Below are positions 50,536 to 64,000 of a stretch of DNA of 64,000 nt, piece after piece. The position numbers were made by a program, and so were the translations under genes. The stretch is taken from the NCBI RefSeq assembly GCF_022788635.1, contig NZ_CP076024.1:4193503-4257502 (forward strand), read 5' to 3'. How positions within the stretch are numbered: the first letter of the stretch is position 1; each line of letters opens with the position of its first letter. Under the pieces are notes generated by a model, which ran no database searches, was not told the origin of the DNA, and saw only the letters and a program-made list of their open reading frames with translations. Source of the stretch: Methylobacter sp. S3L5C (lineage in GTDB: Bacteria; Pseudomonadota; Gammaproteobacteria; Methylococcales; Methylomonadaceae).

Positions 50536-51840
50536 TTAATGGCTGAGCAGGTATTGACTTATTGCCGTTAACTCATCATCACTTAACTGCGAAAATCCAG
50601 GCATTTTCATAGTGTCTGGACGCTTTTTACCCGGCGCTTTAGTCCAGGCAGCAATTCCAGCAGGATTGTTGGCGTAGATTTCTTTAATTTCCTGTAATGC
50701 CGGGCCAACCGTAGTCAATGTTGGATGGTGACAAGCTGCGCAATTTAGGTTAAATGCACTTTCACCGGGAACCAATGTTTGGCTTTCCTGAGTTATTGCA
50801 GTCAATTGTGCTTGCTCCCCTGCGTCTTTAACGGCTGCCTGGTAGTTTGCTGTTTTTTCAGCAATTGCCGATTTATGATCAGCCAAGGCATTTTCCCGAT
50901 AATCATGGCGTGCTATACCCATGATAATGGCTGCACAGACAAAGCAGGTAGTGATTTCTTTTACGCGATCATCCAGGAGATGGCTGGGATAAGTCAGATT
51001 TTGCCACATCCACCACATGGCCGGTAAAACCAACAAGCCACCCAGCATGAGTAATAAAGTAAAGCCCCAGCTCATACCTTGCGGAGGCAATGACGCGAAT
51101 ACTACCAATCCGGTTAATATCTGAAAAACGGTGGCCCCAAATGCAAACGCATAAAAAAATCTGCGCACACTAATAACCCGTAGCCTGCTAAACCCGACTT
51201 CGTCTTGAAAAGATTTACGGCCGCTCCACCAGACAAAAAATAAAGAGCTAAACAGTATGGTGGCTGAAATAAAATGCAGATAACGCTGTAAAACATTGGG
51301 TAGCAACATGGCAGAAAAGAAGCCTTTGACTTGCGGCCAATATTCCGGAAACAGCATTAGATTAACATTGGTCATGAAAATCAGCGGAATAAATAAAAAT
51401 AATCCGGTCTCTAAGGCGGCAATGCCTATATGCAATTCTGGAATATTAATAAAGTGATTCCACCAGAATTTGTGCGCATAAGCCAATAAAAAAGCCACCG
51501 TTACCAAGGGAATAACGGCCATCCACATGTCACCAATTAATGCACTGGACGCATAAAATTGTGGAGCATAGAGTGTGTTGATAACCAACAGTGGCGCTAC
51601 GCCCATGACAACAGCCAGGCTTTTATTGACAGTGACCGTTTGCATGATGCGGTAGGCAAGCTTTTCATAATCGGGCGATTTCAACCCTCTTATTTGACAG
51701 ACGAGGCTGAACAAGGAGCCTCCAACCATTAAATGGACAAACAGGATATGTATCAGGAATGACACAATGAGCAATATTTCCAAAAACCCTTCCGGAGCTG
51801 GTAGAGGTAATGGAATATCGCGAGGGATAGGGGTTGTCAT
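50536..51840 (-). CDS. CydA-like membrane protein with C-terminal cytochrome c domain (subunit 2)
   Basis: 434 residues with about eight membrane helices and then a soluble cytochrome c domain with CAACH (about residues 366-370) and a distal Met in KMPGFSQLS. The first helices (IHILFVHLMVGGSLFSLV, followed by YEKLAYRIMQTVTVNKSLAV) resemble cytochrome bd oxidase subunit I, with His at the position of the first haem ligand. It shares a base with its upstream partner's stop, so the two are translated together. It probably transfers electrons from quinol in the inner membrane to a periplasmic c-haem. An oxidase role is not established. Confidence 0.72.
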   Translation of the reverse strand: MTTPIPRDIPLPLPAPEGFLEILLIVSFLIHILFVHLMVGGSLFSLVCQIRGLKSPDYEKLAYRIMQTVTVNKSLAVVMGVAPLLVINTLYAPQFYASSALIGDMWMAVIPLVTVAFLLAYAHKFWWNHFINIPELHIGIAALETGLFLFIPLIFMTNVNLMLFPEYWPQVKGFFSAMLLPNVLQRYLHFISATILFSSLFFVWWSGRKSFQDEVGFSRLRVISVRRFFYAFAFGATVFQILTGLVVFASLPPQGMSWGFTLLLMLGGLLVLPAMWWMWQNLTYPSHLLDDRVKEITTCFVCAAIIMGIARHDYRENALADHKSAIAEKTANYQAAVKDAGEQAQLTAITQESQTLVPGESAFNLNCAACHHPTLTTVGPALQEIKEIYANNPAGIAAWTKAPGKKRPDTMKMPGFSQLSDDELTAISQYLLSH

Positions 51841-53291
51841 TATTGAAGGTCTCCGTGGGTATTAGCCAGATTGGGTAAAGTGCCGTAAAAGGTTGAGGCT
51901 GAAATTTTGTCAGGTTTGGGGATGCCGTTAGTTTGCGCACCATTAAAGGCGGCTGCCCGTTTTTGTAGTGAGGAAAGGTAAACGGAAAGAGCGTCAAGTT
52001 CAGCTTTATTGCCTGGAAACGGCGGCATAAAATATCGTGCACCGTGCATATTTTCAACGTAGGCCGCAATAGCCTCTGATTGCCATGGTTTTTCGCCATA
52101 CATGTTTTTTAGTTGACCGCGTATGCTGTTAACGCCATTGACGGTATGGCAGCGTGTGCAGGCTTGTTCAAACACTTCGCGACCAGCACTGACCTGATTG
52201 TCAGCAGTGATTTCGCGGATACTTGCATAGGTGGCGTGTTGTAGAATGCCGTCACGTTGCAACAAGGGATAATCTTCTACACGGATACCGTTGGCATACA
52301 TGTACTGACCGATAATAAAGGGTTTGCGAATAAATTCCCGTACCCGTTCAAATTGTCCCAGCATGGCAAACAATAACAGCACCGAGACCAGATATTTTGC
52401 ACCATGTACTTTGCCCGGGTTCTTTACTGATAACCATAAAACCCGACTCACATAAAGTAAACCAACGATCAATATTAGTTTTAATCGGCCATTCCAGCTG
52501 GCATATTCTTGCGTGGCGAATGCGACGGGTATGTTTGCCAACATGTGCTGAGGTATTACTTGATAGTACCAGATTGAGGCGATTATCAGTCCTGCTAACC
52601 AGGCACTTGACCAGGTTGATATGGTGCGTAATACCATGGCGCGAAAAGCAAGATCATGCCGGGTAAATAAATACGTCAAACAGATCATGGTCATACTGCC
52701 CATCACCATAGCCAGTGTGGTTCTGAGTCCTAACTGCGGAAAATACATGGGGTTAAATAAGCCGGAAAGCAGTGTGCGCTTAGTCATCCAGTTACCGGGA
52801 TCCATCATAAAACCAAGAATGGCGACGATAATAGCCATGGTAATCCATGAGAAAGCGGCCAGAAAAATACCTAAACGTAAGTGCTTTAATTTAGCTTCTG
52901 GTGATTTACTGGCTGAGTGCCATCTTAAAAAATAGGCCATGATTAGGCTGACTTCAGTCACAAACACGACCCATTCGGTAAACCAGCCCCAGAAAAACAC
53001 CCGAATTAAGCTGCCAATGGCTGCTGGATTTATCAAGGATGCAGAAAACCAGATACCTACACCCGTTAACGCACCGACTGTTGTGGTAATAATAAATATT
53101 ATTTTTAACAGTCGATAGGCCAGATTGTCCCAGCGTAGGTCTTTACTGCGAATGCCAATAAGCTCCAGCAAGACAATTATCGGTAAAGCGCCAACAGCAA
53201 GCGCATGATTGATGATGACATGTAAGATCGCATCGACTGCGATCAGCATGCGATTACCGATAAAATCGATATGAAAAATAGGAAAATCCAT
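51840..53291 (-). CDS. CydA-like membrane protein with C-terminal cytochrome c domain (subunit 1)
   Basis: 483 residues with about eight or nine membrane helices, then a cytochrome c domain with CTRCH (about residues 375-379) and a Met-containing segment (YFMPPFPGN). The helices ILHVIINHALAVGALPIIV, then TVGALTGVGIWFSASLI and FFWGWFTEWVVFVTEVSLIM, follow the CydA order, including a conserved Glu in the FVTEVSLIM helix. The gene pair resembles the wider bd-oxidase superfamily with added c haems rather than the classic CydAB, because no CydB or CydX is present. Confidence 0.72.
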   Translation of the reverse strand: MDFPIFHIDFIGNRMLIAVDAILHVIINHALAVGALPIIVLLELIGIRSKDLRWDNLAYRLLKIIFIITTTVGALTGVGIWFSASLINPAAIGSLIRVFFWGWFTEWVVFVTEVSLIMAYFLRWHSASKSPEAKLKHLRLGIFLAAFSWITMAIIVAILGFMMDPGNWMTKRTLLSGLFNPMYFPQLGLRTTLAMVMGSMTMICLTYLFTRHDLAFRAMVLRTISTWSSAWLAGLIIASIWYYQVIPQHMLANIPVAFATQEYASWNGRLKLILIVGLLYVSRVLWLSVKNPGKVHGAKYLVSVLLLFAMLGQFERVREFIRKPFIIGQYMYANGIRVEDYPLLQRDGILQHATYASIREITADNQVSAGREVFEQACTRCHTVNGVNSIRGQLKNMYGEKPWQSEAIAAYVENMHGARYFMPPFPGNKAELDALSVYLSSLQKRAAAFNGAQTNGIPKPDKISASTFYGTLPNLANTHGDLQ

Positions 53292-55822: not shown

Positions 55823-56791
55823 TCAATTTTTTTTTGAAATAGTTTTGGGTGAAATACCGAAGTGTTTTATGAAGGCATTACTAAAATTACTGGCATGGTT
55901 GTAACCAACAAAATCTGCGGCAACACTAACTTGGCAGCAGGTAGATTCAAGCAACTGATAGGCTTTATTCATCCTGAATTCCAGTAACAAACCATAAGGT
56001 GTATTCTTAAAAAAGTGGTGAAACAGTTTTTTTAATTTAAATTGATTGGTTCCTACGCGGATTGATAACATTTCTACAGAGGGCGGATTTTTAAATTCAT
56101 CAAACAGAATGTCGCGAGCCAACTTTGCCATTCTCTGGTCTTTTTCATTAATTAGCCCACCATCTTCAGGTCGTGCTTGGCATAGCGGTGTTAATTCCGC
56201 AGCCAAGAGCGACATGGCTTGGCCATGCATAAATATCGATTTTATTTCTCTTGATACGTTACACGTCAATAACTGTTGTGCCGCACACATTCCTTGATGG
56301 GATATAGGGTGATAGCTGACTTGTTGAATGTTGCCTTTATTAAATAAATGCGTAAATTTATTTTCGCCAAAATATCTATCCAACCATTTTTTTCCGATGG
56401 AAAAACGCAGTTGGGTTATCGGTTTATTGGCTTCGTATTGTCGTTCACCGATGCTTGAATTGACTGTGGTAATGGAGGTAAAGCCTTCATTAAAAATAAT
56501 CTTGTTGCCTTGCCCCCCAGAAAAACCCGAGCGTCCCTTTAAGCCAACAGTAACGATCATTCGTGGTTCCTGAAAATCTACTCGGCTTAAAATAGCCAAG
56601 TCTTTAGCGGGTGTATAGAGTGTTTCAATATAGCTCAAATCTTTATCAAGCTGGAATATATTGGAATGGCCGGATCCAGCCTCTTTTGGTAAAGACTGGT
56701 GCAAACAATTATTTGTTTTTTGGAGTTGTAACGGCAAATCACTGGCATTGATGCTCCATTTTCGGGCCGTTAGCTGTTGTATTTTTTTCAT
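55823..56791 (-). CDS. AraC-family regulator (PchR-like)
   Basis: 322 residues. The last 100 residues form the double helix-turn-helix: PPSVEMLSIRVGTNQFKLKK and VSVAADFVGYNHASNFSNAF. The N-terminal part (MIVTVGLKGRSGF, then the ligand region) is of the PchR/siderophore-receptor regulator kind. It reads divergently from the first TonB receptor with about 350 bases between, and the 47-bp inverted repeat there is its likely operator. It probably senses the metallophore taken up by the receptors. Confidence 0.87.
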   Translation of the reverse strand: MKKIQQLTARKWSINASDLPLQLQKTNNCLHQSLPKEAGSGHSNIFQLDKDLSYIETLYTPAKDLAILSRVDFQEPRMIVTVGLKGRSGFSGGQGNKIIFNEGFTSITTVNSSIGERQYEANKPITQLRFSIGKKWLDRYFGENKFTHLFNKGNIQQVSYHPISHQGMCAAQQLLTCNVSREIKSIFMHGQAMSLLAAELTPLCQARPEDGGLINEKDQRMAKLARDILFDEFKNPPSVEMLSIRVGTNQFKLKKLFHHFFKNTPYGLLLEFRMNKAYQLLESTCCQVSVAADFVGYNHASNFSNAFIKHFGISPKTISKKN

Positions 56792-56923
56792 TACCCGAAT
56801 TTTCCTTTACTATAAAACGCTTTAGAAATTAAGCATGAAGTATGCCTTTGTTTATTAGTGACTGATTTTTAATATAAATAATTGTTTTTTATTAAAATAA
56901 GGCAAGGTTTATTCTAATAAAAA

Positions 56924-56970
56924 TACGTCATATCACACACTAAACAAGAAAAAATAAGGGATATGACGCA
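56924..56970. promoter_or_regulatory. 47-bp inverted-repeat operator candidate, copy 1
   Basis: The block begins TACGTCATAT and ends ATATGACGCA, inverted repeats with one mismatch, spaced 27 bases. The inner AAAAATAAGGGATATG is shared with copy 2 at 61161. It lies between the AraC regulator and the first TonB receptor. Confidence 0.72.
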
Positions 56971-57148
56971 ATCCTACTTTTAGCATAAGAAATAATCTTT
57001 TTTGCATATGAATTGGCGAAGAATTAGCGGTTATTATTCGCTACTATCATCGCCAGTTTTTAGTCATGTCCAACAATGGATTTAATGACTGAATAAAAAA
57101 TTCTCAGTCAATGCTGAGGTGTATTTTCTTGCTATGTTGGATTTTAAT

Positions 57149-59410
57149 ATGAAACTCTTACGCTCTAATCGGCCGGTTAAACTTTTAAGATTAACCCGTC
57201 CACTATTGATGTCCTTTTTATTATTTAATTCCAGTTCTGCTGTGATGGCAACAGAGCAGCCAGATAGTGCTACTGAAACGGCAAAGGCGACGGGTAAAAA
57301 AGTCAAGCCGGCATCTGATAAAAGTGCGGCACTGCCTGTTACACTTAAGACAATGGAAGTGACGGAAAAAAGCGATCCACAACTTGCGGCGACAACTGCT
57401 GAAGTGGCGCTTACACCCGGTGGCGTTAGCTTGATTAACATTGATGAGTTGCGTGATCGTAATGTCTCCAGTATTGCAGATTTTTTCCGTTATGCACCAG
57501 GTGTTTGGGCACCTAGTCAAAGTGGTAATGATGAAGTATTTATTTCCAGTCGTGGTTCAAATCTGGATTCTAACAACTATGCGGGCAGTGGTATCAAGCT
57601 TCTGCAAGATGGGTTGCCGGTTACTGCCGCTGATGGTAATAATCATAATCGCATGATCGATCCGCTGGCTTCGAGTTTTGCAACCGTTGCACGCGGAGCC
57701 AATGCTTTTAAATATGGCGCCAGCACTTTAGGTGGCGCGGTCAATTTTACCTCGCCTACGGCTCATGATAGTCCCGAAATGAGATTATCCCTTAGTGGCG
57801 GTAGTTTTGGTCAGTTTCTTGGGCGGGGTACGGTCAGTAAGGTTTTTAATGACAGTCTTGACGGTTTGTTGACTGTCGAAGGCAAAGAATGGGATGGTTA
57901 TCGTGGCCATAACAAGCAGGATCGCTTTGGTCTTTATAGTAATTTTGGCTGGCAAATTTCTGACGATGTCGTTAATCGTACCTTTGTCAGTTATATTAAA
58001 AACAATCAGCAGTTACCGGGCCAGTTGAACCGGGCACAATTCACGGCAGATCCTTATCAGGCTAGCACCCAAGCTATTGACGGTAACTATCAATTAAATA
58101 CTGAAACAGAGCGCGTTGCCAACAAAACAACGTGGACTATTGATGATAAAAGCTCTCTGGATATTGGTTTTTCTTTTGAAAACCAACAGCTTTATCATCC
58201 GATAGTATCCAAGGTGATGTTGCCGAATGTTAAGGGCGGCCAAAATGATATGTTCAGTATGTTGGTCGATACCAACCAGCAAGACTGGGGTACGTCGGCT
58301 CGCTATAATCGGCGTATGGATAACCATGAATTATTAGTGGGTTTGAATTTTGGTACCAATTCGGATAAAGGTGGCAACTATACCAATAATGGCGGTCAGC
58401 GTGGTGCGATGACTAATGACATTACCAAGAAAGCCGATAATATCGAAATTTTTGCTCAGGATCATTGGCATCTAACGGATAAATGGACGTTAACACCGGC
58501 GTTGCAAGGCGTATTTGCACATCGTGAAGTCAATAACAAACGTTTATCTATTCCTCAAGACGGACAACCTAATTTTATTTTTGCACCCACGCCCAATTTT
58601 TATCCCCAAGGCGGTAATCCCAGTAACGACTATGCCGGTATTAATCCCAGTTTAGGCTTAATGTATAACGTGACCCAGAACTCCAGTCTGTATGGTAACG
58701 TCAGTCGTTTATTTGCGCCACCAACCAACTATAACATCTCGGATAATATCACTGCAGGTTCAGGTAGTACCAATCTTAAAGCAATGGAAGGAACTTCTAT
58801 TGAAATAGGTACACGCGGCTTGCAAAAAATCGGTAACCTGAATAATGTAAATTGGGATTTGGCGCTGTATTATTCCTGGCTTAATAATGAAATTCTGTCG
58901 ACTACTCCTCCGGGCGGTTCACCCATAGCAACAAATTTTAATAATACCATCCATGCCGGTGTTGAAGGTTTAATCGGGGGCTCTTTTGCCCTGGATAAAA
59001 ATGGCACACATACCATCAAACCGGTATTGAGCTACACCGTCAACCATTTCAATTTTGATGGTGATGCCACTTATGGTAATAATGCTTTACCGGCAGCCCC
59101 CGATTATTTCTTGAAAGGCGAGGTGATGTATAACCATGCCAACGGCTACTTTATTGGGCCGACTTTTGACGTGGTCGGTAAGCGCTGGGGAGATTATGCC
59201 AATACTTATGCTGTTGACGCCTACAATTTGTTGGGTATGCGTACCGGCTGGTCTAACAGTCATTATAAGGTTTTTGTCGAAGGCCGGAATTTGCTTGATA
59301 CTGTCTATGTTGCCAATACCAATATTTTGAATACAGCAACATCCGCTGACGCCATGTTAAACGCTGGCGCACCTTTAGCATTCTATGGTGGCGTAGAAAT
59401 TACTTACTAA
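57149..59410 (+). CDS. TonB-dependent outer-membrane receptor 1 (FecA-like)
   Basis: About 753 residues from ATG 57149. ATG 57134 and GTG 57119 are alternative starts. A signal peptide (PLLMSFLLFNSSSAVMA) is followed by the plug domain (VSSIADFFRYAPGVWAPSQ and VFISSRGSNLDSNNYAGSG), then a 22-strand barrel ending YGGVEITY, with aromatic last residue. The TonB box region lies near residue 65-90 (LKTMEVTEK). It imports a metal chelate across the outer membrane. It resembles FecA-like receptors for siderophores or related ligands. The ligand is not known. A terminator follows the gene. Confidence 0.93.
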   Translation: MKLLRSNRPVKLLRLTRPLLMSFLLFNSSSAVMATEQPDSATETAKATGKKVKPASDKSAALPVTLKTMEVTEKSDPQLAATTAEVALTPGGVSLINIDELRDRNVSSIADFFRYAPGVWAPSQSGNDEVFISSRGSNLDSNNYAGSGIKLLQDGLPVTAADGNNHNRMIDPLASSFATVARGANAFKYGASTLGGAVNFTSPTAHDSPEMRLSLSGGSFGQFLGRGTVSKVFNDSLDGLLTVEGKEWDGYRGHNKQDRFGLYSNFGWQISDDVVNRTFVSYIKNNQQLPGQLNRAQFTADPYQASTQAIDGNYQLNTETERVANKTTWTIDDKSSLDIGFSFENQQLYHPIVSKVMLPNVKGGQNDMFSMLVDTNQQDWGTSARYNRRMDNHELLVGLNFGTNSDKGGNYTNNGGQRGAMTNDITKKADNIEIFAQDHWHLTDKWTLTPALQGVFAHREVNNKRLSIPQDGQPNFIFAPTPNFYPQGGNPSNDYAGINPSLGLMYNVTQNSSLYGNVSRLFAPPTNYNISDNITAGSGSTNLKAMEGTSIEIGTRGLQKIGNLNNVNWDLALYYSWLNNEILSTTPPGGSPIATNFNNTIHAGVEGLIGGSFALDKNGTHTIKPVLSYTVNHFNFDGDATYGNNALPAAPDYFLKGEVMYNHANGYFIGPTFDVVGKRWGDYANTYAVDAYNLLGMRTGWSNSHYKVFVEGRNLLDTVYVANTNILNTATSADAMLNAGAPLAFYGGVEITY

Positions 59411-59431
59411 GGGTTTATCTGTAAATAGTTG

Positions 59432-59467
59432 ACGGCATCAGTAAAAAATATTGATGCCGTTTTTTTT
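59432..59467 (+). terminator. Rho-independent terminator after receptor 1
   Basis: ACGGCATCA and TGATGCCGT pair perfectly around a loop of AT-rich sequence and are followed by seven T. It separates receptor 1 from the amidohydrolase gene 30 bases later. Confidence 0.9.
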
Positions 59468-59499
59468 ATATCAATTTGCCACTATAACGCTTTTCCTTT

Positions 59500-60777
59500 A
59501 TGAAAATACTCTTGAAATTATTTTTGAAAATTATATTGTTACGATTTTTATTTTTGGCGGCTATTGTCTCATCTCCGGTAATGGCTTTGGAAACGGAGCA
59601 AACTCCTTTACTTATTCATGCCGCCCGGGTTTTTGATGGCACCAACATGAGAACCAATACTTCGGTATTAGTCATTAATGGAAAAGTGGCGCAAATCGAT
59701 TCGCGTGACGTATTTAAGTCCAGTCCTGTTAAAGTCATTGATTTAGGCGATGCAACCTTGCTGCCTGGTTTTATTGAGCTACACGCGCATCTTGCTTTTC
59801 AACATATTCCGGCTGACATTGTTCTACGACATGGGATTACCACGCTTCGAGATGTTGGCGGGCCTTTGCACCAACCTTATGGTGGTGACGGCAGTTTGCG
59901 TGTTTTGACGTCAGGCCCGATTATTACTGCAGTAAATGGTTATCCCATTCCCGGTATGGGAGCCGATAATATTGCTGTTCCTGTTGCTACAGAAGAGCAG
60001 GCGCGAGCAACCGTGAACAAGTTAATTGCTGGCGGCGCGGTAGTGATTAAGGTGGCTTTGGAACCGGGCGGTGAAGTCGGTGCACCGTGGGCATCAGGTC
60101 ACGGGCATGGTCATGAAGATAAACCGGTTGCGGAGCATGATGATCCTCATCATCAACCTGCACATAAAACGACTGATTCAAAAATGGCATGGCCGTTATT
60201 GCCGGAAAATATAGTTAAAGCGATTGTCGATGAAGCGCATAAACATCACCGTAAAGTGGCCGCACATATTGGTGAAGAAAAAGGTGCCGAGCTTGCCATC
60301 AATGCCGGTATTGATGAATGGGCGCACGTTCCTTGTGATGTTATTCCTGAGCCTTTACTAAAGAAAGCCGTCGCTCAACAGGTAAAAATAGTCACTACCA
60401 TAGATACCTTATCAAAATGTCCGGGTATCACTCACAACGTTAACCGATTGGCAGCGCTGGGTGCCGAGTTTTTATATGGCGCTGAAGTTGCCCATCCCGA
60501 CATTCCCTGGGGTATTGATGCACAAGAGCTTATGTATATGATGCACATGGCAAAAATGCAGCCGCTGGAGGTTTTGCATACAGCAACACAAAAAGCCGGT
60601 CGCTATCTGAATATACCACTGCTGGGAACCATACAAAGCGGTGCACCGGCCGATATGATTGCCGTAAAAGGTGATCTTGCTCACAGTTTTAAAACCTTGG
60701 AGTATCCCGATCTGGTTATGTCCGGCGGCAAGATTATCGTCAATAATTTTGTTAAGGAACTGCCTGTTTTACGCTGA
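59500..60777 (+). CDS. Secreted amidohydrolase with His-rich insert
   Basis: 425 residues with a signal peptide (IILLRFLFLAAIVSSPVMA). Amidohydrolase metal motifs are present: ELHAHLAF (about 93-98), VVIKVALEPGG (a Lys that may be carboxylated), KVAAHIGEEKG (His about 257) and EWAHVPCD (His about 276). The usual last Asp motif is replaced by YGAEVAHPDIPWG. Residues about 199-224 form an insert rich in His, with GHGHGHEDKP and HDDPHHQPAHK, a likely metal-binding loop. Between two TonB receptors it may process a periplasmic peptide-like chelator or store metal. The substrate is not known. Confidence 0.85.
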   Translation: MKILLKLFLKIILLRFLFLAAIVSSPVMALETEQTPLLIHAARVFDGTNMRTNTSVLVINGKVAQIDSRDVFKSSPVKVIDLGDATLLPGFIELHAHLAFQHIPADIVLRHGITTLRDVGGPLHQPYGGDGSLRVLTSGPIITAVNGYPIPGMGADNIAVPVATEEQARATVNKLIAGGAVVIKVALEPGGEVGAPWASGHGHGHEDKPVAEHDDPHHQPAHKTTDSKMAWPLLPENIVKAIVDEAHKHHRKVAAHIGEEKGAELAINAGIDEWAHVPCDVIPEPLLKKAVAQQVKIVTTIDTLSKCPGITHNVNRLAALGAEFLYGAEVAHPDIPWGIDAQELMYMMHMAKMQPLEVLHTATQKAGRYLNIPLLGTIQSGAPADMIAVKGDLAHSFKTLEYPDLVMSGGKIIVNNFVKELPVLR

Positions 60778-61160
60778 TATAGGGTAGCTTCTCATTAGCT
60801 GCAGGTATATTATAAATCAATGGCTTACATGGAAATAAAATTTAAACACCATGCATTTTCTTATAAGAATTCATCGCAACTCGATTTGATTTCTGATTGT
60901 CCGGCACTAAAAAAGCGAGTTTTAGTGAATTTCAAGTGCGCTAACTTATTGAAAAATAAGCTTACCTGTGACTAATGAGAAGTTGCGATATAGGTAGTGA
61001 AGCTTCGATGGGTAATCAATCCGGTATGCCTTGCTTGCCTGATTAATTAATTCATGATCCTATTAATCTTTGAATAACAATTATTAATACATTTAATGCC
61101 CTTCGGGGCATTTTTTTTGCCGATATTTTGGCTACCTACAAACTCTGTCGATCACACAAA
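60778..61160. other. Intergenic region with hairpins
   Basis: No gene. CTTCTCATTAG (60788-60798) is repeated inverted at 60972-60982, and a strong terminator lies at 61095. The rest is AT-rich. The sequence leads to the second operator candidate. Confidence 0.45.
61095..61118 (+). terminator. Rho-independent terminator
   Basis: AATGCCC-TTCG-GGGCATT with a UUCG-type tetraloop followed by eight T. It ends transcription from the amidohydrolase side before the second receptor. Confidence 0.9.
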
Positions 61161-61207
61161 TGCGTTATATGACACTATTTGTGTCAAAAAATAGGGGATA
61201 TGGCGCA
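61161..61207. promoter_or_regulatory. 47-bp inverted-repeat operator candidate, copy 2
   Basis: It begins TGCGTTATAT and ends ATATGGCGCA, with the same 27-base spacing as copy 1 and the shared AAAAATAGGGGATATG. It lies about 190 bases before the second TonB receptor. Confidence 0.72.
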
Positions 61208-61393
61208 TTTATTTAATGTAATCCATGGATTACATGACTTTTGTCTAGGATGTATTGCTGTCAGCCAGCCAGAACAGTACGCTGGCGCTGTTCTGGCATG
61301 TACTTTGCTGATAATTTATGACTTGTCTGTTTTATAGAATATGCAGGCAATAAAAGCGCACAAATTATCACTAAACATAGACAATTGCAAAAA

Positions 61394-63520
61394 ATGAAAA
61401 CTAAAAATCAAATGGTCACCGGCATTCTGGTAGTGGCCGCTATTACCGTTACGCCAATGATTGCCGAGTCCGCCGATGAGCAGAAAGCCTCATCAGCTAA
61501 AGTACCGTCAGTTAAAGCTCCGTCAGTTAAAAAAAGCACAGAAGTACCGGATAAAAAATTGCCGGCTGATAATACGGTCTTTGAATTGGGCCAAATGGTG
61601 GTGACAGCGGCATCCACACAAAAATTACAAAGTACGGATATTATTACTTCGGTGGATGTTTTAAATGCCGATAAAATCCAAAACCAAAATGTACTGACCA
61701 GTTATGATTTATTTCACCGTATGCCGGGTGTGCAGGTTACCCAATTTAATCAAGGAACTACGACCGGAAAATTTTCTTTCCGGGGCTTCAACGGTGAAGG
61801 TAACATTAATGGTGTCAAGCTGTTAATCGATGGCATTCCCAGTAACAGTAATGATGGCAATATGCCTTTTATTGATGCGATATTCCCGTTGGATATTGAA
61901 TCAATTGAAGTACTTCGCGGCACCAACGATCCTCGCTATGGCCTGCATGCCATTGCGGGTAATGCCAATATATTCACAACTCAGGGCGGCAATTACCTTA
62001 AAGGTCGAGTGAGTTATGGCAGCTTTGATACCCATGACATTCAAACCGGTGCAGGTTACGAATCAGGTGGTTTTTCACAAAACTATACGGTGTCATATCG
62101 GGCGACCAATGGTTATCGCGATCATGCCTCTTCGGAAAAAAACAGTTTTTCAGGTAAATGGTTTTATACGCCTGAAAGTGAAAAAATTAAAGTAGGGCTG
62201 ATTGCCAGATGGAGTGAAGCTGAAGCACAAGAATCCGGATATTTGACGCTCGAACAAGCTAAAGCCAATCCAACCCAGTCCATGGCTCATAATGCCAACG
62301 ATAGTGGTACCCGGCAAGTTGGCCAACTGAGTGGCCATCTGGATGTTAATTTAACGGATGATCTGTTTTGGTCGACTAAAAGTTATGCCAATACCCTTGA
62401 TGATCAGCGTTGGGTACGCTATAGCGTTGTCGAATCGCAGCAAGAACGAGATACCAATGAAGTCCAGTATGGCGGTATTACTTCACTGACCTACCACCCC
62501 GATATTTCCTGGTTGGATGATTTCTCCCTGGAATCGGGTTTTGATGTTCAGCAACAAGATAACAAAAGCTGGCGGTACAGAAATTTAAATCGTGCCAGAA
62601 CATCGCAAACCCGCAATCAGGATTTTAATTTCAATGTTTATGGCGGCTATTTGACGGCCATGGTTAAACCTTTTAAATGGTTAAAATTGACGCCAGGTTT
62701 TCGTGCTGACAAGGTTAGCGGTGATTATACCAATAAGTTGGTTAATAAATCGTATGAGGTCAATGATTACGGTACTATCTGGCAACCTAAAATGGGCGCG
62801 ATTATTACTCCAATAGAAGGTTACAGTCTTTATGGTAATTGGGGGCGGACTTTTCAGGTTGCCGTTGGTGCCGGTGCTTATAATACCAATCCCAATCCTG
62901 TTGATATTGCGCCGTCAATTAATGATGGCTGGGAAGTGGGTGTTAAAGTCGAGCCTGTCGATTGGGCCGAAGGACGTGTAGCGTACTGGAAGCAAACAGC
63001 GACTAATGAGTCGAGTCGGGTTCTTAACAGTGCGGGTAACGATTCCACACTTGTTGGTGCCACTGATCGGCAAGGGGTTGATATACAGCTTAAAGTCCAA
63101 CCAATTAAGTTGGTTAGTGTGTGGACTGCTTTTTCCTTACAGGAAGCTATTGTTGCTACACCCAAAAGTAATCCGGCACTGGCAGGAACCCAAATTTTCA
63201 ATACGCCAAATTACTTGTTTTCCGGCGGTATAGATTATCAAATAATGCCCAAGCTAAAATCATCCCTGTGGACAACAGGACAGAGTAGCTATTATGTTGA
63301 TGAGGCAAATAAAAAAGGTAAATTTGGTGAATATGCCTTGTTAAATCTGGATATCGGTTATCAGGTAAACAAGCTGGTTGATTTACAGTTTCAGGTGAAA
63401 AACCTGACAGATACCTATTGGGAATACGTTTGGTATAATACGACCGCCAATCAAACTGCCCATGCGCCCGGTGATGGTCGTGCCTTTTATGGGGCCATTA
63501 ATGTTAAATACGATTTATAA
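61394..63520 (+). CDS. TonB-dependent outer-membrane receptor 2
   Basis: About 708 residues from ATG 61394 (a TTG nine bases upstream is also in frame). A signal peptide (TGILVVAAITVTPMIAESA) is followed by a short Lys/Ser/Val-rich tract with PSVKAPSVKK, then the TonB box region (LGQMVVTAAS) and the plug (VLTSYDLFHRMPGVQV). The barrel ends YGAINVKYDL. It is only distantly similar to receptor 1 and shares its putative operator. The downstream PepSY gene is typical of iron-siderophore loci. Confidence 0.93.
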   Translation: MKTKNQMVTGILVVAAITVTPMIAESADEQKASSAKVPSVKAPSVKKSTEVPDKKLPADNTVFELGQMVVTAASTQKLQSTDIITSVDVLNADKIQNQNVLTSYDLFHRMPGVQVTQFNQGTTTGKFSFRGFNGEGNINGVKLLIDGIPSNSNDGNMPFIDAIFPLDIESIEVLRGTNDPRYGLHAIAGNANIFTTQGGNYLKGRVSYGSFDTHDIQTGAGYESGGFSQNYTVSYRATNGYRDHASSEKNSFSGKWFYTPESEKIKVGLIARWSEAEAQESGYLTLEQAKANPTQSMAHNANDSGTRQVGQLSGHLDVNLTDDLFWSTKSYANTLDDQRWVRYSVVESQQERDTNEVQYGGITSLTYHPDISWLDDFSLESGFDVQQQDNKSWRYRNLNRARTSQTRNQDFNFNVYGGYLTAMVKPFKWLKLTPGFRADKVSGDYTNKLVNKSYEVNDYGTIWQPKMGAIITPIEGYSLYGNWGRTFQVAVGAGAYNTNPNPVDIAPSINDGWEVGVKVEPVDWAEGRVAYWKQTATNESSRVLNSAGNDSTLVGATDRQGVDIQLKVQPIKLVSVWTAFSLQEAIVATPKSNPALAGTQIFNTPNYLFSGGIDYQIMPKLKSSLWTTGQSSYYVDEANKKGKFGEYALLNLDIGYQVNKLVDLQFQVKNLTDTYWEYVWYNTTANQTAHAPGDGRAFYGAINVKYDL

Positions 63521-63531
63521 CCGATAAAATC

Positions 63532-64000
63532 ATGTCGACAGGAAAAAATCCAGGCAATAAGATGCCACTAAGTCATAATCACTGGCGTAAGCGTTGGTTG
63601 AGCCTTCATCTTTATTTGGGATTGAGTCTGGGTCTGGTGTTTGTGCTGGCAGGATTAACCGGCAGCTTACTGGTTTTTTACGTGGAGCTTGATGAAATTA
63701 TCAATCCACAGTTGCAAGTCTCGGCTGCGCTGGCTGAGCAGGAACCGCAGTCTTATGAGGCTGTCTTTCAGGCTCTTCGTCAAGCGCATCCGCAACGAAG
63801 TGCTGCCTGGCGGTTGGAAATACCGCGTCATAAACAAGCCTTGTTAATGGCGCGTTATTACAAGCCGGTCGAAAAAGCAGGTCTGTCTTTTGCTCCGCTG
63901 ATTGTTTGGGTTAATCCATATAACGCAGAAGTCGCCAGTAGCCGTTTTTGGGGCGAGTTTGTAATGACCTGGTTGTTTGATCTGCATTATGAGTTATTGC
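63532..64000 (+). CDS. PepSY-associated membrane protein, N-terminal part
   Basis: The frame from ATG 63532 is open to the window end (156 codons), so the gene is cut. LSHNHWRKRWLSLHLYLG and VFVLAGLTGSLLVFYVELDE are the first helix of PepSY_TM proteins, which act as ferric-siderophore reductases or related partners. It starts 12 bases after receptor 2 and is surely in the same operon. Confidence 0.88.
   Translation, partial: MSTGKNPGNKMPLSHNHWRKRWLSLHLYLGLSLGLVFVLAGLTGSLLVFYVELDEIINPQLQVSAALAEQEPQSYEAVFQALRQAHPQRSAAWRLEIPRHKQALLMARYYKPVEKAGLSFAPLIVWVNPYNAEVASSRFWGEFVMTWLFDLHYELL

Follow-up and report, generated by a model that had tools for sequence, protein, structure and literature searches.

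In the genome of Methylobacter sp. S3L5C, within a stretch of 64,000 nucleotides (hereafter the window, bases 4193503-4257502 of a 4.82-Mb single-contig genome), two 47-bp blocks of similar sequence stand before genes for TonB-dependent receptors, the first (block 1, 56924-56970) between receptor 1 and a divergent araC-family gene, and the second (block 2, 61161-61207) upstream of receptor 2. These blocks are real, non-random and correctly placed, and we propose, with a probability of about 0.85, that each serves one sigma-54 enhancer-binding protein (EBP) as a tandem upstream activator sequence. In its architecture the tandem corresponds to an enhancer of sigma-54 activators, to which, judging from the DNA, an EBP would bind. 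The operator is real and of a known mechanistic kind; our literature searches, which missed most subscription journals, found no published description of the tandem motif, and of its palindrome core one 12-letter word, TGTCATATGACA, was absent from the literature searched, while one or other of two further such words was found in four papers, all with unrelated titles.

Aligned without gaps, the blocks are identical at 33 of 47 positions, against a mean of 12.2 matches and a maximum of 26 among 20,000 random pairs of 47-mers from the window, coding or not. Each consists of two 16-bp near-palindromes with the core TGTGTCATATGACACA, separated by 31 bp from centre to centre. A matrix for the 16-bp unit, derived from 66 half-sites of the loci described below, both orientations counted, and with TGTGTCATATGACACA as its symmetric consensus, finds exactly four sites scoring at least 9 in the window, two in each block; no tandem arose in 100 mononucleotide shuffles of the window, and the real sequence holds only these two. 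A sequence-only reading of the window had recognised two blocks of equal length, their spacing and a shared inner run, and all of this is borne out. It also gave their ends as TGCGYYATAT and ATATGRCGCA, a pattern that block 2 follows exactly and from which block 1, with TACGTCATAT at its left end, departs by one letter. Its term 'inverted repeat' is merely one possible reading, because each single arm is already near-palindromic and the paired units found across relatives may be direct or inverted. Its suggestion that one regulator serves both blocks agrees with our own view that the binder is probably a single DNA-binding protein.

The window blocks belong to a much larger family. Searching the source genome for the block with up to three mismatches and fixed spacing, much as had been suggested, returns the two window blocks alone, but a profile (R1), built purely from the sequences of 21 blocks including both of these, found further copies. 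Comparisons were made over 237 genomes, which we take to be members of the Methylomonadaceae and all of which R1 matches at E <= 1; in relatives only matches with E below about 4e-6 were picked, and part of those listed, while weaker matches were examined too in the window genome and its closest relative, G039. ORFs (open reading frames) were called by a simple script rather than a gene finder, and in relatives many genes were named by eye. The loci read hold 120 distinct tandems, and 118 of these lie between genes, although ORFs of at least 150 aa cover 79%. The spacing of the units is restricted: among 122 pairs within 8-70 bp, 111 are 29-32 bp apart, nine are 21-23 bp apart and none falls at 24-28 bp, counts that are biased by the choice of loci, which were taken either for an R1 match (with spacing near 31 bp) or for the presence of araC.

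The connection with sigma-54 comes from what lies between the tandem and the adjacent gene. Candidate promoters were scored separately, on a scale set by hand from the textbook consensus. A GG-N10-GC element scoring at least 20 occurs on a gene-facing side of 80 of the 112 distinct tandems that have such a side, or on 91 of 177 sides, compared with 50 of 650 control genes from the same loci. Sixty-eight of these 91 block-to-element distances cluster at 42-44, 49-54, 60-66, 72-76, 83-87 and 105-108 bp, and the other 23 are scattered from 117 to 232 bp. The distance is periodic, with a best fit of 10.8-11.2 bp or about one turn of the helix. A further test admitted a single gene from each homology cluster, an element being present in 35 of the 61; the best period was then 11.2 bp with R = 0.66, a value reached by none of 1000 random sets; at 10.5 bp the same 35 clusters gave R = 0.42. 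Both of the sigma-54-type features that we tested, a promoter with GG at -24 and GC at -12 and a helically phased upstream site, are thus present, and it is because of the linked GG-N10-GC elements and the phasing of about 11 bp that the tandem fits an EBP activator site. The element before receptor 2, CTGGCATGTACTTTGCT, attains 29.4, the maximum of the scale, and has one change in G039.

Upstream of araC, a GG-N10-GC element faces the gene in all 24 block-bearing loci, at 71-75 bp from the block in 13 and at 42-44, 53 or 62 bp in nine, the outliers being L064 (21 bp) and L039 (135 bp). In the 17 araC loci that lack the full block, the scores of the best sigma-54 matches range from 5 to 22, and three loci reach at least 20.

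Several observations count against a sigma-54 enhancer. The gene-facing side carries no element scoring at least 20 in 32 of the 112 tandems, and certain groups of genes have none at all (0 of 4 for HEAGH-peptidase-like proteins, 0 of 3 for a 449-aa protein). The araC element begins with AAGG in most loci and has modest scores of 15-24; for comparison, the 95th percentile of random 260-bp windows is 21.4, and a score of at least 16 is found for 29% of control genes. Since such scores are common by chance, the case for sigma-54 at araC rests on the fixed position of the element, among loci that are themselves related. Finally, block 2 is shallowly conserved, the full tandem being kept in 2 of 30 receptor-2 loci.

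In the mechanism that we propose, each of the two 16-bp palindromes would be occupied by an EBP dimer, both on one face of the helix since 31 bp amounts to about three turns, and looping of the DNA would bring them to sigma-54 polymerase at a -24/-12 promoter, in most cases 40-110 bp away and in phase. Block 1 would drive araC, whose ligand-sensing product would then activate receptor 1 by way of a GCATA repeat beside the receptor promoter, while block 2 would drive receptor 2 and the PepSY gene directly; both receptors would sit in a larger sigma-54 regulon of cell-surface and metal-uptake functions. The structure shares its 16-bp TGT-N10-ACA geometry, its tandem sites and its -24/-12 promoter with upstream activator sequences of the NifA/NtrC type; such systems have tandem 16-bp TGT-N10-ACA sites together with a -24/-12 promoter. 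It differs from them in that two genomes with strong blocks have no NifA in the set of EBPs read, and no nif genes were recognised among the targets read.

One alternative, adopted in the sequence-only reading, is that the neighbouring AraC protein (322 aa, which we take to be PchR-like, and 96% identical to its homologue in G039) binds both blocks and co-regulates both receptors. Block 1 does occupy the intergenic region between araC and receptor 1, and the core of its units resembles GCATA half-sites. We read 41 araC loci, namely the window and 40 of 43 places in relatives, with three partial ones omitted (two in G130, one in G114). Tandems scoring at least 25 of 32 precede araC in 24 of them (L064, L069 and L070 just reach this threshold), in the form of a near-palindrome of about 16 bp, TGYGGCATATCACRCA in many genomes, repeated at 29-32 bp. 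The full block is missing from the other 17, a few of which keep a single related half-site. A separate direct repeat of CTTTTRGCATAAGAAAT at exactly 21 bp is found in 23 of the 41 loci, 16 of the 24 with a block and 7 of the 17 without; in shuffled sequence a pair at 19-23 bp arose once in 2050. Because this GCATA repeat is kept in both kinds of locus it suits an AraC operator, and AraC's own site is more likely to be this repeat, beside receptor 1, than the block. The sigma-54-like element beside block 1 faces araC, which suggests that araC is probably the target of the block rather than the source of its binder; tandems with such an element also precede many unrelated genes, their units are palindromic, unlike the direct repeats usual for AraC proteins, and no GCATA repeat was seen by eye beside block 2. 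We therefore consider binding by AraC to be quite improbable. PchR/AlcR-type AraC regulators are found next to TonB receptors, and the window locus resembles theirs in having araC divergent from the receptor gene and a direct-repeat operator near the receptor promoter; it departs from them in that araC is apparently under sigma-54 control through a separate enhancer.

It is also improbable that a dimeric regulator outside the sigma-54 system, CRP/FNR- or Fur-like, binds the tandem and that the sigma-54 matches are incidental. Tandem CRP-type sites are compatible with 16-bp palindromes at 31 bp, and the 32 tandems with no strong sigma-54 match speak for such a regulator, but against it stand both the excess of elements on gene-facing sides over controls and a helical phasing that persists with one gene per family. 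A mobile or structural repeat, copied without any regulatory role, is scarcely credible as the source of the blocks: there are several copies per genome and some are fully palindromic, yet the position of the block before orthologous araC genes is conserved across species, and the spacer between the units diverges while the phasing is kept.

If the tandem is an EBP site, several EBPs come into question as its binder, PrsR being the obvious one. In the PrsR/PrsK regulon of PEP-CTERM genes (Haft 2006, PMC1569441) a sigma-54 promoter has an activator motif about 60 nt upstream (motif 1 averages 63 nt above the promoter in that account) and the products are secreted surface proteins, a layout shared with our tandems, and PrsR might be thought to bind the block as its motif 1. 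The window genome encodes a PrsR over the curated cut-off and one block target carries PEP-CTERM. However, the 17-nt motif 1 ends in TTTACA in the text of PMC1569441, which the block consensus lacks, and the targets here include TonB receptors, araC, ECF (extracytoplasmic function)-type sigma factors and cytochromes. The phylogenetic profiles differ as well. Scored by the curated cut-off over the 237 genomes, PrsR is present in 96, and its presence does not track the block: none exceeds the cut-off in G169, G080, G062, G088, G144 or G110 despite strong blocks, and G006, G033 and G060 have PrsR without a strong block. PrsR as the binder is accordingly very improbable. Two further candidates fared no better. 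In G062 and G088, both with strong blocks, the EBPs read include no NifA, the best matches reaching 44% and 42% to the NifA of the window genome. A PAS-domain EBP (L292) has no match at E <= 1e-105 in G142, G173 and G175, which are 98-99% complete and have strong blocks, although a gene split between contigs could escape this search.

The candidates that remain are a short orphan EBP, an L298-type response regulator and the EBPs that we take to be NtrC and NtrX. The short EBP is our leading candidate, on the strength of its genomic associations. It has about 319 aa, with AAA+ and HTH (helix-turn-helix) domains and no sensor domain, and its gene adjoins one for a DsbD_2 membrane protein. G080 has two such DsbD_2-EBP pairs, and upstream of the second stand a near-consensus block (50.9) and a sigma-54 element (25.0); G012 has a second copy of the short EBP, at a distance of 2 kb both from araC and from a TonB-receptor gene. 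It is found in 218 of the 237 genomes at E <= 1e-90 and, being nearly universal, has a distribution that says little. Eleven of the 19 genomes without a match were rechecked; G173 and G185 hold fragments of apparent orthologues and the other nine gave nothing above 51% identity. Its absence from G040 (97% complete, block E 4.6e-9) and G229 (92%, 1.2e-7) speaks against it; G064, G160, G165 and G210, which lack it too, also have strong blocks but are 65-83% complete. That G229 and G040 lack the short EBP despite their strong blocks counts somewhat against its copper reading and for another EBP, be it the L298-type two-component regulator, NtrC, an NtrX-like protein or NifA, which we entertain as a tentative alternative. 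NtrC-like and L298-type EBPs are present in all four positive genomes whose EBP sets were read (G000, G012, G062, G088), each of which has in addition one weaker PF00158 protein, presumably NtrX, and the unit fits TGT-N10-ACA, the textbook site of NifA. Against these, the EBPs read from G062 and G088 lack NifA, the usual site of NtrC is unlike the block unit, and no block was seen tied to an L298-type gene, though no search was made for one.

The sequence-only reading envisaged a small regulon, with further copies of the block only before TonB or metallophore genes. The tandems instead appear to define a regulon wider than TonB genes, taking in cytochromes, TonB/ExbBD and secreted proteins. 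In the window genome R1 copies lie between two divergent TonB receptors (1114479, E 2.6e-8) and before a 449-aa protein (774164, E 2.0e-4), with weaker ones (E 0.004 to 0.2) near genes for a 1678-aa DUF4347/cadherin-like, adhesin-like protein, PEP-CTERM and cytochrome c-domain proteins, sulfotransferases and an ECF sigma factor. Targets in relatives comprise a TonB/ExbB/ExbD operon and a multihaem cytochrome by Pfam, and ECF-type sigma factors and PepSY-like proteins by eye; among tandem-linked genes as a whole, there are examples of MauG-type peroxidases, multihaem cytochromes and TonB receptors, by an assignment made partly by eye. A PhoB-like regulator with a block upstream in four loci was considered as binder, but a related PhoB-type protein is matched in 222 of the 237 genomes at E <= 1e-45, and in our view its role is at most that of a target.

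The way in which methane oxidisers perceive a shortage of metals, copper above all, and remodel their surface is unsettled, and the mechanisms of the copper switch are described in PMC4831470 as not yet fully elucidated. By analogy, the gene content described here resembles the response of Methylococcus to copper limitation: the copper-responding clusters of Methylococcus capsulatus Bath likewise contain multihaem cytochromes, MauG-family and TonB proteins, and their authors note putative sigma-54 promoters, but the portion of that account on which we draw names Fur and IHF boxes and no shared activator motif (PMC4831470). In Methylotuvimicrobium alcaliphilum, CorA and MEALZ_0810-0811 are reported to be induced under copper limitation (PMC11784148). 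Metal limitation would be a plausible signal for the tandem, and we rate copper in particular at somewhat below even odds. The fuller proposal is that Methylomonadaceae have an undescribed regulon for copper starvation under the orphan, sensor-less, DsbD_2-linked EBP, which would turn on TonB receptors, TonB/ExbBD, MauG-type peroxidases, surface cytochromes and secreted proteins, while AraC would form a second tier that needs the matching metallophore; this proposal is unlikely to be correct in all its parts. Three secreted proteins from block-bearing loci, searched for CorA/MopE homology, had no match to PDB sequences at E <= 1. A predicted N-terminal histidine was not significantly more frequent among secreted targets (6 of 27 against 14 of 156, Fisher p = 0.086, by a home-made signal-peptide rule). 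With regard to a lanthanide signal, AraC and the amidohydrolase are both absent from the main text of PMC12482762. With the operator defined, the promoter class recognised and the candidate regulators few, the question of metal sensing becomes testable in a single strain, and the same paired site before many surface and metal-uptake genes in methane-eating bacteria makes a wider regulatory network testable. The arrangement also suggests a way in which a siderophore-type AraC switch could be nested under sigma-54 master control.

Table 1. Features of the two receptor loci, in window coordinates.
Feature	Position	Strand	Remarks
PchR-like AraC-family regulator of 322 aa, likely controlled by block 1	55823..56791	-	HTH_18, PF12833
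Putative sigma-54 promoter of araC, AAGGCATACTTCATGCT	56832..56848	-	75 bp from block 1
Block 1, putative tandem activator site	56924..56970	.	units 56924-56939 and 56955-56970; matrix score 38.2
Probable AraC operator, direct repeat CTTTTAGCATAAGAAATA / TTTTTTGCATATGAA, 21-bp register	56977..57016	+	near receptor 1
Weak GG-N10-GC facing receptor 1, probably chance	57013..57029	+	score 20, 42 bp from block 1
TonB-dependent receptor 1, start possibly a later ATG	57119..59410	+	plug and beta-barrel
Amidohydrolase with His-rich insert, probably exported	59500..60777	+	PF01979; export and insert judged by eye
Block 2, putative tandem activator site	61161..61207	.	units 61161-61176 and 61192-61207; matrix score 31.5
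Putative sigma-54 promoter of receptor 2, CTGGCATGTACTTTGCT	61293..61309	+	85 bp downstream of block 2
TonB-dependent receptor 2, likely controlled directly by block 2	61385..63520	+	plug and beta-barrel
PepSY_TM protein, 393 aa, extends beyond the window	63532..64000	+	PF03929; probably co-transcribed with receptor 2

The amidohydrolase and the PepSY protein had been suggested to belong to the same uptake system; for the amidohydrolase this has support, a homologue (36-100% identity) accompanying araC in 27 of the 41 loci, but receptor 2 and PepSY follow araC and the amidohydrolase in just two of the 41, the window genome and G039, some loci ending at contig ends. Receptor-2 homologues occur in 52 of the 237 genomes at E <= 1e-100. 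Because the full tandem is confined, among the 30 receptor-2 loci read, to the window genome and G039, receptor 2 looks to have been recruited recently to tandem control; elsewhere L086 and L077 have tandem scores of 26 and 25 of 32, and several other receptor-2 loci have a single half-site that matches 13-15 of the 16 positions. The weak match that faces receptor 1 is not kept in G039, which has GT in place of GC. A strong terminator-like hairpin at 59431-59467, a 13-pair stem followed by a T run, separates receptor 1 from the amidohydrolase gene, and given this hairpin the latter may need a promoter of its own or read-through. Another hairpin, of 11 pairs (61268-61297), overlaps the -24 element of receptor 2 with its 3' arm, and its sequence is partly altered in G039.

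Some further observations concern the neighbourhoods of tandems. In L161-L162 (G169 contig C14, 74001-114000) at least seven tandems fall within 35 kb, a 'regulon island' in which the neighbouring genes encode secreted proteins, a PhoB-like regulator and, by eye, a homologue of MauG-type peroxidases. The 449-aa protein (L182:5406-6755, L168:3611-4960) has no Pfam match, has a good tandem and no sigma-54 match upstream, and its gene adjoins what appear by eye to be Pvc16 and tail-sheath genes. The genes for peptidase-like proteins with a HEAGH motif stand beside a tandem in L184, L162, L164 and L057. In the window itself, at 50536-53291 on the minus strand, two adjacent genes encode membrane-like proteins (434 and 483 aa); in both a CxxCH haem motif was recognised by eye at the C-terminal end, and the two may form an oxidase-like pair.

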